NCBI GenBank assembly: GCA_910574635.1
Contig: CAJTCG010000013.1
Location: 7,250-71,249, forward strand
From: Oscillospiraceae bacterium
Lineage (GTDB): Bacteria; Bacillota; Clostridia; Oscillospirales; Oscillospiraceae
Length of the DNA: 64,000 bases
Direction: 5' to 3'
Made by a program: the position numbers and the translations under genes. The notes beneath the pieces were generated by a model. It made no database searches. It saw only the letters and a program-made list of their open reading frames with translations, and was not told the DNA's origin. Shown in pieces: positions 42,078 through 55,781 of the stretch (the stretch's first letter is position 1; the number at the start of each line of letters is the position of its first letter).

Positions 42078-42100
42078 AAAAAATTCATATACTGTATATC

Positions 42101-42129
42101 TTGCATATTTTCCCCTTCTATGCTATACT
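42101..42129 (+). promoter_or_regulatory. Sigma-A promoter of the OLE-type RNA
   Basis: TTGCAT (42101-42106), 17-bp spacer, TATACT (42124-42129), giving a predicted start at about 42136. Confidence 0.75.
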
Positions 42130-42135
42130 GATTTC

Positions 42136-42790
42136 CGCTAAGCGGCGGCGCAGTATTCTAGTCAGATCTGCCGTTTCCTAGGGAGGGCCTAAAAATCCTC
42201 TGAAGGGCACATCGATGAAACCCGTGGTGCCTGCTTGATACGCCCAGTTTTGGGTGGGTGCTGGGGGGAAGCGTACTCGGTACGCTTGCGGACTCAGGGC
42301 GTTTTCCAATGGCATGGTTTATCCGACCCTGTTTCCGTGGAGACCTGTTCTTGTGCGCGGACGTACTCCCACTGTGGTAATTCCGGCCCGCGTACGAAGC
42401 AGATTGTGAACCTGCAATGCGGTGCATCGGTCTTTCGGGGCCGTAACGCTGTGTGCAGCCGTAGCCTGCCTTGAGTGGGGCGGGTGGATTAGGGAACTAC
42501 GGAGGGCGGCCCCGGCCAGGGCGGCGTTCCGATCGCCCTTTGAAACCCGTTTTGCAAAAGAGGCTAAAGAAGCGGACAGACTGTGGTGGAAATCACCTAG
42601 GCTGTCCTGACGGGGCAGAAAAGGGATTGCAGTGCGGACTAAGTGGCAATCGGGTAGCGCGGAGAGGCAACGCCGCGCCGGAGCACCGAACGGGAAACCG
42701 CCTCCATCGGCAACGAGAGGTGTGTTCCGGGGAAATCCAACCCGTACCTAAGCCGTAAGATTTACTTTTTCTGCCGCCGCCGGCTTAGCT
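42136..42790 (+). ncRNA. ole: Large structured RNA, probable OLE RNA
   Basis: A 760-bp interval without a credible gene has its own promoter and is dense in paired segments; for example CTAAGCCG (42748-42755) is exactly complementary to CGGCTTAG (42781-42788) near the 3' end. The size (about 650 nt) matches Ornate Large Extremophilic (OLE) RNA. The next gene encodes an OapA-like membrane protein, followed by dxs, tlyA, nadK, argR and recN, exactly the conserved OLE neighbourhood of B. halodurans and other Firmicutes. The primary sequence was not aligned to the OLE consensus, so the call rests on context, size and structure. The boundaries are estimates. Confidence 0.85.
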
Positions 42791-42841
42791 TATAAAACAT
42801 AAGAGGCCGTCCCCCATGGGCGGTCCTTTCGGGAGGTTCCT

Positions 42842-43384
42842 TTGAAAAAACAGCAGAAGGGAAAGGCCTCTTCCCCATATCGTTGGGCCCTTACGGTCTT
42901 TTTGATGGCGGTGGTCCTCTCCGCCGTGCTGAGTCTGGCGTCGGAGTCGATGCTGGAGGGCGCGGGCGTGACCGCCGCTCTTTTGATGCTGGCGCTGTTC
43001 ATCGGCCTGGGCATTTTATTCGACATTATCGGCGTGGCCGTCACGGCGGCGGACCCCAAGCCTTTTCACGCCATGGCCTCCCACAAGGAGAAGGGGGCCA
43101 AGCAGTCGCTGACGCTGCTGCGGAACGCGGGGCGGGTCTCCAGCGTCTGCAACGACGTGGTGGGGGACATCTGCGGCATCGTCAGCGGCGCCACGGGGGC
43201 GGTGATTGTCACCCAGCTCCAGCGTGCGCTGAATTTGCGGACGATGCTGATTTCCGTGGCCGTCACGGCCCTGGTTTCCGGCCTGACCATCGGCGGCAAG
43301 GCCCTGGGCAAGACGGTGGCCATTAAAAAGAGCACCCAGGTGGTCTATTGGGCCGGGCGTTTTTTGTACCTGTTCCACCATTGA
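42842..43384 (+). CDS. oapA: OLE-associated membrane protein OapA
   Basis: A 180-aa protein with about four membrane helices. The central segment FDIIGVAVTAADPKPFHAMASHKEKGAKQSL followed by AGRVSSVCNDVVGDICGIVSG is what I recognise as the core of OapA, the RNA-binding partner that holds OLE RNA at the membrane. It lies directly after the RNA. The start is a TTG with GGGAGG 6 nt upstream. Basic residues at the N-terminus and between helices would suit RNA contact. Confidence 0.88.
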   Translation: MKKQQKGKASSPYRWALTVFLMAVVLSAVLSLASESMLEGAGVTAALLMLALFIGLGILFDIIGVAVTAADPKPFHAMASHKEKGAKQSLTLLRNAGRVSSVCNDVVGDICGIVSGATGAVIVTQLQRALNLRTMLISVAVTALVSGLTIGGKALGKTVAIKKSTQVVYWAGRFLYLFHH

Positions 43385-45252: not shown

Positions 45253-46066
45253 AATGAGATTGGACCTGCTTTTAGTGGAGCGGGGCCTGGAGGAGAGCCG
45301 CCAGCGGGCCCAGGCCGTCATCATGAGCGGCGTGGTCTACGTGGACGGCCGGAAGGCGGATAAGCCCGGCATGGCGGTCCCCGCCGCCGCTGCGGTGGAA
45401 GTCCGGGGGGACAAGCTCCCCTACGTGAGCCGTGGCGGGCTGAAGCTGGAGAAGGCCATGGCGGCCTTTCCCGTCCATTTGGAGGGGGCCGTCTGCGCCG
45501 ACATTGGGGCCTCCACCGGGGGCTTCACGGACTGCATGCTCCAAAACGGCGCGGCCAAGGTCTACGCCGTGGACGTGGGCCGGGGCCAATTGGCCTGGAA
45601 GCTGCGAAGCGACCCCCGGGTGGTCTGCCTGGAGCGGACCAACGCCCGGTATCTCAGCCGGGAGCAGGTGCCGGAGGAGCTGGCCTTCGCCTCGGTGGAC
45701 GTGAGCTTCATCTCCCTGAAATTGATCCTGCCCCCCCTGGCGGCCCTGCTGGCGGAGGGGGGACAGGCGGTTTCCCTGGTGAAGCCCCAGTTTGAGGCGG
45801 GCCGGGAGAAGGTGGGGAAGAAGGGCGTGGTCCGGGACCCCGCCGTCCACTTGGAGGTTTTGGAGCGCTATCTGGACCACGCCGCGGAAGCGGGGCTGAC
45901 GGTGCGGGGCCTGACGTACTCCCCCATCCGGGGGCCGGAGGGGAACATCGAGTACCTGGGCTTCCTGCAAAAGGGCGGCGGCGCGGCGGCGCCCTTTGAT
46001 TTAAAGGCCCTGGTGGAGGAGTCCCACCAGGTCTTGAAGGAACACGGAGAGGGGGAGCGCCCATGA
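45242..46066 (+). CDS. tlyA: TlyA family rRNA methyltransferase/hemolysin-like protein
   Basis: A 274-aa protein with an N-terminal S4 RNA-binding domain (MRLDLLLVERGLEESRQRAQAVIMSGVVYVDG) and an FtsJ-type SAM domain (VCADIGASTGGFTDCMLQNGA, DVGRGQLAWKLR, DVSFISLKLILP). TlyA proteins 2'-O-methylate 16S and 23S rRNA. The start overlaps dxs by 11 bp with GGAGG upstream; the stop overlaps nadK (ATGA). Confidence 0.94.
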   Translation: MSDKMRLDLLLVERGLEESRQRAQAVIMSGVVYVDGRKADKPGMAVPAAAAVEVRGDKLPYVSRGGLKLEKAMAAFPVHLEGAVCADIGASTGGFTDCMLQNGAAKVYAVDVGRGQLAWKLRSDPRVVCLERTNARYLSREQVPEELAFASVDVSFISLKLILPPLAALLAEGGQAVSLVKPQFEAGREKVGKKGVVRDPAVHLEVLERYLDHAAEAGLTVRGLTYSPIRGPEGNIEYLGFLQKGGGAAAPFDLKALVEESHQVLKEHGEGERP

Positions 46067-46941
46067 GCGCCAAGAAGATCATCCTGTGCCCCAATCCCAA
46101 CCGGGATCAGGGCATGAAGGCAACCCGGGCGGCGGAGGGTATCCTCCGCCAGATGGGCTTTCAGACGGTGGTGTGCTCTCCCTTCCGGGACCGGAAGGAG
46201 GGGGCCTTCGGCGACTATGATGTCCAGCCCCTGCCCCAGGAGCTCCGGGGGGCGGATCTGCTGATTACCTTCGGCGGGGACGGGACCATCCTCCACCTGG
46301 CCAAGCTGGCGGCCCTTCACAAGATGCCGGTGCTGGGCGTGAACATGGGGGGCCTTGGATTTGTGGCCGAGCTGGAGGTCTCTGAGCTGGAGCAGCTCCG
46401 CAGGCTCAAGGACTGGCAGTTTGAGATGGAACAGCGGATGATGCTGGATGTCTCCGTCTTCCGGGACGGGCGGCAGATCTATACGAATCTGGGGCTGAAC
46501 GAGGCCGTCATCCGGGAGGGCCCCATCTCCCACGTCATTCATTTGAAGATCTCCTCCGATGGGCGGCATCTGGCGGACATTGCCGGGGATGGCGTGATTG
46601 TGGCGACCCCAACGGGGTCCACGGCTTACTCCCTCTCCGCCGGGGGGCCGGTGGTGGAGCCGGTGGCCCAGACCATGGTGGTCTGCCCCATCTGCATCCA
46701 CAACATGCGCTTTTCCTCCTACGTCCTCAGCCCCGAGCACACGCTGACGGTGGAGCTGGAGCGGAACGGGCGGAAGCCGGTTTACCTTTTCGTGGACGAG
46801 AGCCGGGCCTTTGCCCTGCGGGCGGACGATAAGATTCAAATCCGCCGCTCCCGCTACGTGACCCGGCTGGTGCGGCTGACGGAGCGGAGTTTCTGCGAGA
46901 TCTTCGCTCAAAAAATGCTTCCGGGAGGGATGGACACATGA
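46063..46941 (+). CDS. nadK: NAD kinase
   Basis: A 292-aa ATP-NAD kinase. The GGDGT motif is at residues 71-75, with the conserved LGVNMGGLGFVAEL, NEAVI and TPTGSTAYSLSAGGP. It makes NADP from NAD. ATGA overlaps join it to tlyA before and argR after. In OLE loci this order (tlyA, nadK, argR, recN) is conserved. Confidence 0.97.
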   Translation: MSAKKIILCPNPNRDQGMKATRAAEGILRQMGFQTVVCSPFRDRKEGAFGDYDVQPLPQELRGADLLITFGGDGTILHLAKLAALHKMPVLGVNMGGLGFVAELEVSELEQLRRLKDWQFEMEQRMMLDVSVFRDGRQIYTNLGLNEAVIREGPISHVIHLKISSDGRHLADIAGDGVIVATPTGSTAYSLSAGGPVVEPVAQTMVVCPICIHNMRFSSYVLSPEHTLTVELERNGRKPVYLFVDESRAFALRADDKIQIRRSRYVTRLVRLTERSFCEIFAQKMLPGGMDT

Positions 46942-54283: not shown

Positions 54284-55285
54284 TTATCTGGGTAGAAACC
54301 CGACCTTTTTGTAGACCTTGGCCAGGGTGCGGCCGGCAATGCGGGAGGCCCGCTCCGCGCCCTGGCGGTAGAGGCCCTCCAGATACGCCTTGTCGGCCAT
54401 CAGGCGCTGGGCCTCCTCCCGGATGGGGCGGAACAGCTCGATGACCGCGTCGCCCACGGCGGGCTTGAAGACTCCGTAGCCCTGGCCCTGGAATTCGGCC
54501 TCCGCCTCCTCCAGGGTCTTTCCTGCGGCGGCGCAGTAGATGGTCAGCAGGTTGGAGACACCGGGCTTCGACTCCTTGTCATAGCGGACGGCGGTTTCGC
54601 TGTCGGTGACGGCCCGCTTGAACTTCCGCTGGATGACCTCCGGCGGGTCCATCAGGTTGACGCAGCCGTCGGGGTCGGATTTGCTCATCTTGTTCATGGG
54701 GTTGCCCAGGCTCATGATCCGGGCGCCCTGGTCCACTCTTTGAATGAAGGGTTCCGGCAGGGTGAAGGTGTCGCTGTAGACGCCGTTGAAGCGCTGGGCA
54801 ATGTCCCGGCACAGCTCCACATGCTGGCGCTGGTCCTCGCCCACGGGCACCAGGTCCGTCTGGTAGAGCAGGATGTCCGCCGCCATGAGCACCGGGTAGG
54901 TAAAGAGGCCGGCGGTGATGTTGTCGGCGTGCTGCTGGGATTTCTGCTTGAACTGGGTCATGCGGCTCAGCTCGCCGAACTGGGTGCAGCAGCTCAGCAC
55001 CCAGCTCAGCTCCGCGTGCTGGGGGACGTGGCTCTGGATGAAGAGGATGCTCTTCTCCGGGTCCAGGCCGCAGGCGACATACTGGGCCAGCTGGCCCAGC
55101 GCCCGGCGGCGCAGATCTGCGGGCACCTGCCGCACGGTGATGGCATGCATATCCACGATGCAGTAGACGCACTCGTATTCGTCCTGAAGGGCGACCCAGT
55201 TTTTGATGGCGCCCATATAAGACCCAAGGGTCAGCTCTCCGCTGGGCTGGATGCCGCTGAAAATCCGTTTCTTCTTGCTTTCCAT
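54284..55285 (-). CDS. trpS: Tryptophanyl-tRNA synthetase
   Basis: A 333-aa class Ic synthetase. The HIGH-equivalent is in SGIQPSGELTLGSYMGA and the KMSKS motif is in NPMNKMSKSDPDG; VPVGEDQRQHVELCRDIA is conserved. It is preceded by a T-box riboswitch with a UGG specifier. The wall-polysaccharide genes downstream may be co-transcribed and so be partly under tryptophan control. Confidence 0.97.
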   Translation of the reverse strand: MESKKKRIFSGIQPSGELTLGSYMGAIKNWVALQDEYECVYCIVDMHAITVRQVPADLRRRALGQLAQYVACGLDPEKSILFIQSHVPQHAELSWVLSCCTQFGELSRMTQFKQKSQQHADNITAGLFTYPVLMAADILLYQTDLVPVGEDQRQHVELCRDIAQRFNGVYSDTFTLPEPFIQRVDQGARIMSLGNPMNKMSKSDPDGCVNLMDPPEVIQRKFKRAVTDSETAVRYDKESKPGVSNLLTIYCAAAGKTLEEAEAEFQGQGYGVFKPAVGDAVIELFRPIREEAQRLMADKAYLEGLYRQGAERASRIAGRTLAKVYKKVGFLPR

Positions 55286-55469: not shown

Positions 55470-55781
55470 TCAAAAAAAGACCCCCATCCCAAGAAAAGAC
55501 CTGTTGCAGGTATCTTTGGGACAAAAGCCTTAAAACTTCTGCGGTGCCACCCAAATTGGCGGTTTCAAACCGCCCGCTCGGCGGCGCGCCGTCACGCGCC
55601 TTTCCTTGGTAACGGGGGAAAAGCCCGTCGAAGCGTAATGAGGGAGCCTGCTCCCGGTTCAGCCCGCCCTCCGCGGTCCATTCAACAGGCTTGCGTCTGC
55701 CGCCCTTCCACCACCGGCGGCTCGCTATGAAAACCAAGACCCCGTTTACTTCTCCGCATCATCGGTTTGCGCTTATATGTT
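55470..55781 (-). promoter_or_regulatory. Tryptophan T-box riboswitch of trpS
   Basis: On the minus strand the leader carries the invariant T-box GGGTGGCACCGC (55541-55552), which pairs with the acceptor end of uncharged tRNA. The candidate specifier is TGG (55678-55680) in the context GAATGGACC, fitting Trp. A terminator hairpin follows (TCCCAAAGATACCTG pairing with the CAGGT...TTGGGA arm, about 55484-55522), then a run of seven T (55472-55478). When tRNA-Trp is uncharged, the antiterminator forms and trpS is read. Confidence 0.92.

Follow-up and report, generated by a model that had tools for sequence, protein, structure and literature searches.

The OLE locus and its genes

The window, by which we mean the whole analysed stretch of 64,000 nucleotides, lies within contig C13 of an Oscillospiraceae genome (G000, 4.48 Mb) and harbors an OLE RNA, which ranks among the largest bacterial non-coding RNAs, followed by oapA and the genes dxs to recN:

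42101..42129, + strand: likely ole promoter, read in the sequence; TTGCAT (42101-42106), 17-nt spacer, extended -10 TGCTATACT (TATACT, 42124-42129)
42129..42796, + strand: OLE RNA, envelope of the covariance model RF01071; the transcript probably starts near 42136
42188..42198, + strand: A-rich loop L4, CCUAAAAAUCC
42514..42517, + strand: palindromic GGCC of L9.3
42842..43384, + strand: oapA, 180 aa, TTG start, CNNM-type membrane protein with DVVGD (DxxxD), PF01595 30.9 bits
43396..45252, + strand: dxs, TIGR00204 656 bits
45239..46066, + strand: tlyA, TIGR00478 272.6 bits, start placed by the family match
46063..46941, + strand: nadK, PF20143 and PF01513
46938..47387, + strand: argR, TIGR01529 138.1 bits
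47519..49219, + strand: recN, TIGR00634 520.9 bits

The first-pass annotation had claimed an OLE RNA in a gene-free interval of about 760 bp and proposed a run of the Rfam OLE model as the check. The covariance scan bears this out: RF01071 matches 42129-42796 of the forward strand with 399.1 bits (E 9.1e-114), well over the gathering score of 50, the match covers model positions 1-616 of 616 and is thus full length, and the gene-free interval measures 764 bp (42078-42841). This is the single OLE match in the whole assembly. At gathering scores the scan of the window reported a T-box alone besides OLE, which rules out a different RNA family for the interval, the finding that the annotation had named as fatal to its claim. 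The T-box leader (55514-55771, - strand, 98.3 bits) lies upstream of a gene (54284-55285, - strand) that reads by eye as a tryptophanyl-tRNA synthetase. Coding use of the OLE interval was considered and rejected, as its ORFs, of 62-95 aa, are mechanical products that overlap with conserved RNA.

For comparison we used near loci, that is the window and the best 80 of 550 confirmed loci as ranked by OapA, with an identity of 55% or more. They are named Oscillibacter, Dysosmobacter, other Oscillospiraceae or merely Clostridia and are mostly metagenome assemblies; for several with names such as Clostridia bacterium the family was assigned from OapA identity. The L4 string is identical in 63/69 of the near loci examined (window and best 80 of 550), and at L9.3 a script picked GGCC in 67/77 readable ones from the same set. 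In the OLE dimer resolved by cryo-EM the A-rich loop of L4 pairs between the two chains as bridge B1 and the palindrome of L9.3 is the kissing-loop bridge B3 (PMC12286853); both of these dimer-contact sequences can be recognized in the window. The model positions that we took as P13, with the OapB site at its end, are all filled but one deleted position in the cmscan alignment.

The promoter had been described as one of perfect spacing. The 17-nt spacing holds and the -10 element is extended by TG, but the -35 element agrees with the consensus at only 3/6 positions and a strict consensus scan reported no promoter at ole. Upstream DNA could be read in 69 of the 81 near loci (window and best 80 of 550), and within these TATACT is the best -10 in 38/69, the best-scoring -10 ends 19-21 nt ahead of the GCAGTATTC block in 56/69, and scores of at least 7 are reached in 68/69 at the promoter versus 39/69 in a control stretch further upstream. 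A weak ole promoter is therefore likely, on the grounds of position and conservation.

The oapA start codon stands 45 nt behind the OLE match. Much longer spacers were seen in two other loci, about 700 nt in L107 (3021-3800, G016), where N bases occur, and about 500 nt in L073 (4485-5000, G031), with apparent short inverted repeats. The oapA product matches PF01595 (CNNM) with 30.9 bits against a cut-off of 28.4 and has no further Pfam match; none of the NCBIfam models matches it, and a sequence comparison with the PDB gave chance matches only (E 0.4 and 0.92). OapA proteins are known to resemble CNNM proteins and to carry a distinctive DxxxD motif (PMC11332333). The DVVGD of the window fits this motif, which supports the OapA assignment, and DVVGDICG is present in 81/81 near loci (window and best 80 of 550). 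The predicted OapA structure is of moderate confidence (mean pLDDT 74.5); its closest fold is MtCorB and unrelated helical proteins score almost as high, so that the model would lend support to a CorB-like fold without proving it. OapA next to OLE and the downstream order dxs-tlyA-nadK-argR-recN had both been predicted in the first pass; the domain match and the motif uphold the former, and Pfam or TIGR models matched all five downstream genes in that order.

Host and spread of OLE

The closest named OapA among the best 80 of 550 matches is 97% identical and belongs to an uncultured Oscillibacter sp., and several titles among these best 80 of 550 mention gut sites or host animals. The earlier suggestion of a probable intestinal lineage is thus a fair inference drawn from relatives.

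OLE is common in gut-type Clostridia. It was found in 45/60 related genomes and OapA in 47/60, the window's own genome counted; OLE without OapA occurred in 0/60, and in both OapA-only genomes (2/60) oapA lies no more than 170 nt from a contig start. In a sample of the class OLE was present in 151/391 genomes, and it has been reported from 2,822 Bacillota genomes, gut clades among them (PMC11332333). With OLE in thousands of Bacillota, the window locus is an ordinary member. A copy in a gut lineage thus has no value as a first; for comparative structure the lineage is useful because of an additional hairpin in J5/6, which the first-pass annotation had missed.

Three genomes deserve separate mention. 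G041 has two OapA genes and one OLE match, the second OapA (C94:6635-7159) being without OLE on its contig and the other lying on C41. In G037 (99% complete) OLE is on C53 and OapA on C30, possibly unlinked. G008, a 95% complete congener, gave no match for OLE, OapA and MpfA and has OapB, OapC and bS21.

An additional hairpin in J5/6

The region between P4 and P7 is arranged in the window as follows; the stem-loops were placed by alignment to a model of this region:

42211..42220, + strand: J4a/5 kink-turn strand; C85=42213, G89=42217, A90=42218, A91=42219, bases found in 77/77 hairpin-bearing unique regions
42221..42267, + strand: P5 stem-loop
42269..42287, + strand: additional J5/6 hairpin AAGCGUAC-UCG-GUACGCUU, 8 bp, 19 nt, inserted at 141/142 in Rfam numbering
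42290..42336, + strand: P6 stem-loop, first base G144; base 143 before it is C
42337..42343, + strand: J6/7 GUGGAGA, the partner strand of kink-turn 1b; G193-G196 = 42339-42342, bases found in 77/77 hairpin-bearing unique regions

The hairpin at 42269-42287 is present in the predicted minimum-energy fold of 42202-42353. The insert was found in 75/75 readable near loci, 6/81 being unreadable (window and best 80 of 550). Outside the window's family it was found in 1/118 loci and 117 were without it; L251, L231 and L250 had been assigned by hand to the window's family, hence the outside set of 118. The single exception, L002, belongs to another family of the same order and its J5/6 hairpin is 15 nt long. 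Apart from L002, every insert sequence is from the near lineage. The sequences are thus not independent, and the insert would represent nearly a single evolutionary event, with L002 as a second, weaker one.

Pairing in the hairpin was examined on 65 distinct hairpins in 76 rows (L002 omitted, the L116 hairpin cut short by the pattern). Standard pairs fill 464/514 pair cells, whereas 1000 partner shuffles averaged 398 and never exceeded 413; this comparison ignores kinship. Changes on both sides occur at pair 2 (A-U/G-C), pair 4 (C-G/U-G/U-A) and pair 8 (G-C/C-G, 23 each), and because the pairs include such two-sided changes the helix is taken as real. Judged by this alignment, the OLE RNAs of the window's lineage share a covarying J5/6 hairpin.

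The hairpin is much longer in L106, L060, L133 and L251, about 115-125 nt, with regions of 236-246 nt versus 139 in the window. By their titles, L106 and L133 are metagenome genomes from goat reticulum. A named species, Oscillibacter valericigenes (L097), for which a complete genome exists, bears the J5/6 hairpin as well. The literature examined says nothing of a J5/6 hairpin in Oscillospiraceae, and a search gave no paper pairing 'OLE RNA' with 'Oscillibacter'; both 'Oscillospirales' and 'insertion' are absent from the main text of PMC11332333. The hairpin may already stand in supplementary alignments.

Kink-turns 1a and 1b

The J5/6 strand takes part in a debated structure. Two kink-turns have been proposed in print as the OapC site. 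Kink-turn 1a joins the J4a/5 strand to J5/6 and to the left side of P6 (PMC9723947). Kink-turn 1b, formed by J4a/5 with J6/7, was seen by cryo-EM (PMC12286853) and contains three G-A pairs (PMC12412911). The two turns and the P5/P6 form were described as three mutually exclusive, relevant structures (PMC12054373), and OLE was again credited with two potential k-turns (PMC12265935). Support for 1a in H. halodurans comes from a J4a/5-J5/6 construct and from in-line probing, and covariation was reported for both turns (PMC9723947, PMC12054373).

We placed both registers on Rfam numbering ourselves: 1a as C85-G144 and G89.A143, 1b as C85-G196, G89.A195, A90.G194 and A91.G193. A covariance model built for this part of OLE was then run over 231 sources and gave 193 unique regions, 77 with the insert and 116 without. 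Very long, cut-off or degenerate regions (L059, L060, L061, L106, L133, L251, L135, L138, L093 and L250) stand outside the 193. Five mis-registered rows (L108, L116, L128, L129 and L139) were kept in the hairpin group of 77 and left out of the A143 count of 72; they also read GC before G144.

A143 was found in 0/72 hairpin-bearing unique regions with clean register: 71 of them have C at this position and one, L002, has G. By contrast, 101/116 regions without the insert have A143, and A195 is present in 113/116 of them. The bases C85, G89, A90, A91, G193, G194, A195 and G196 are each found in 77/77 hairpin-bearing unique regions. As A143 was never seen and the 1b core is invariant, the published G.A pair of 1a is, judged by sequence, impossible in this lineage and 1b is possible. 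L002, also without A143, keeps UGGAGA, and its genome (G043) has OapC. Base 84 varies in the hairpin-bearing RNAs, of which only 35/72 retain the 84-197 pair of 1b, so the canonical helix of 1b is short.

Partner proteins

The window's genome encodes OapB, OapC and bS21. OapB lies between map and infA (G000:C5:90252-90533) and its residues 7-82 match PDB entry 7k9b, 'OLE-associated protein B', with E 1.1e-6. OapC (G000:C13:103221-103454) matches YbxF (4lck) with E 1.2e-12, and 69 nt separate the end of the oapC ORF from the first start codon of the rpsL ORF. The gene for bS21 (rpsU) is also present (E 1.7e-21). No CorC_HlyC (MpfA-type) protein was found in this genome.

MpfA-type proteins score above the cut-off in 6/45 OLE-positive genomes versus 10/13 genomes devoid of both OLE and OapA (Fisher p 3e-5, kinship and completeness ignored). 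This agrees with the published anticorrelation of OLE and MpfA, which holds in the present sample. In the congener G013 (C1:215474-217709) a CorC_HlyC (MpfA-type) domain precedes OLE by about 1.3 kb, against the usual anticorrelation. Enrichment with OLE was not significant for OapB (36/45 OLE-positive genomes versus 7/13, p 0.08) or for OapC (29/45 versus 5/13, p 0.12). Within the genus OapC was found in 18/32 OLE-positive genomes, a shortfall that comes partly from incomplete assemblies; the rpsL match is missing in 6/12 genomes tested for it, so some OapC absences are uninformative.

The genomes without an OapC match include G003, G009, G026 and G027, in which the long J5/6 hairpin was read, and G019, whose hairpin counts as long by its 746-nt OLE match only. 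In the congeners G003 (L106), G009 (L060) and G027 (L133) rpsL is assembled together with its upstream 1.5 kb and no oapC is there. L7Ae-type matches in G003, G009, G027 and G028 were rejected as OapC, being weak and inside frames of 200 aa or more. A tie between OapC loss and hairpin expansion was likewise set aside as a lead only: G026 has no rpsL match, the others may be one lineage, and G028 is without OapC at rpsL yet has an ordinary hairpin.

Discussion

The data are best explained by an OLE ribonucleoprotein locus that is functional in an Oscillibacter-type bacterium and in which the J5/6 helix probably removes kink-turn 1a and leaves 1b as the OapC site. By analogy with published work on relatives, OLE would be transcribed from its own promoter, would dimerise through L4, L5/L6/L7 and L9.3, and would have the CNNM-like OapA as its membrane anchor; it may tune Mg2+ and stress responses and so cover at least part of the job done elsewhere by MpfA. 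The hairpin itself suggests the remaining steps, namely that the extra J5/6 helix abolishes the turn between J4a/5 and J5/6 and that the turn between J4a/5 and J6/7 stays behind as a preformed site to which OapC could bind. Most likely, then, OLE here acts in the familiar way, as a membrane RNP anchored by OapA, and its OapC site is of the 1b type only.

One might argue that OapC is inactive on OLE in this lineage, that the J6/7 and J4a/5 bases merely shape the five-way junction, that OapC binds other kink-turn RNAs and that the hairpin is neutral. Several facts speak for this. The 1b core is intact in the long-hairpin RNAs L106 (G003), L060 (G009) and L133 (G027), that is in genomes without OapC at an assembled rpsL, and its conservation is therefore not creditable to OapC alone and may serve the RNA junction instead. 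Moreover, cryo-EM of the RNA alone shows the kink-turn (PMC12286853), and OapC is reportedly far more broadly distributed than OLE (PMC9723947). However, 18/32 OLE-positive genomes of the genus keep OapC, some absences carry no information because 6/12 genomes tested for rpsL gave no match to it, and the pairing constraint on the hairpin (464/514 standard cells) shows that it is not plain decoration. We regard an OLE that has no use for OapC as unlikely, though it deserves to be kept in mind. Rather doubtful is a more elaborate history for Oscillospiraceae, according to which the new J5/6 helix abolished 1a so that the RNA no longer switches, and the helix, once grown to about 115 nt, replaced OapC, which was then lost.

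It could also be that 1a still forms after a shift of register, with the J5/6 hairpin opening at its 5' foot to supply the A and the G that normally come from J5/6. In 76/76 rows an A able to face G89 is indeed found in the first J5/6 bases, followed by a base able to pair with C85. The canonical helix of such a turn would nevertheless reach 2 bp in only 5 rows and a single bp in the other 71, compared with 1a helices of at least 2 bp in 95/116 regions without the insert, and its formation would disrupt the covarying hairpin. Thus a re-registered 1a is improbable. That the interval holds some other RNA family or a decayed OLE copy has a practically negligible chance, given the full-length match (E 9e-114), the conservation across relatives and the intact oapA. 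All this concerns the present lineage: kink-turn 1a may well be real in H. halodurans, where the supporting chemistry was done.

The preferred reading, a helix in J5/6 that leaves 1b as the OapC site, bears on a region of OLE, P5-P6, for which three structures that exclude one another, among them two kink-turns, have been published (PMC12054373). The lineage with a plugged J5/6 may be regarded as a natural mutant, and it predicts that 1b is sufficient there. Oscillibacter valericigenes offers a named species with a complete genome for testing this prediction.

Compared with the OLE RNAs of H. halodurans and C. acetobutylicum, the RNA of the window is alike in spanning all 616 model positions, in the L4 A-run, in the L9.3 GGCC, in the adjacent oapA and in the dxs-side neighbours. 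It differs by the extra 19-nt J5/6 hairpin, the UUAA of J5/6 being replaced by G-[hairpin]-GC, and by a gut-type host, as judged from relatives. In other species ispA/xseB is the upstream context of OLE; in the window a pseudouridine synthase gene stands in their place. With respect to the published kink-turns, the window keeps the J4a/5 and J6/7 core bases of 1b unchanged, whereas the J5/6 strand needed for 1a is interrupted and A143 is C. The window's OapA also differs from the CNNM/CorC/MpfA Mg2+ transporters, as it has no CBS or CorC_HlyC match and carries the DxxxD motif. OLE variants 1 and 2, which are commonest in the TANB77 and RF39 clades (PMC11332333), likewise come from gut bacteria and, as does the OLE of the window, deviate from the consensus. 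However, these variants are shortened in P7-P9 or are without P7/P8, and variant 1 is often without the OapB site, whereas the OLE of the window spans the full model with an insertion added and its genome retains both OapB and OapC.
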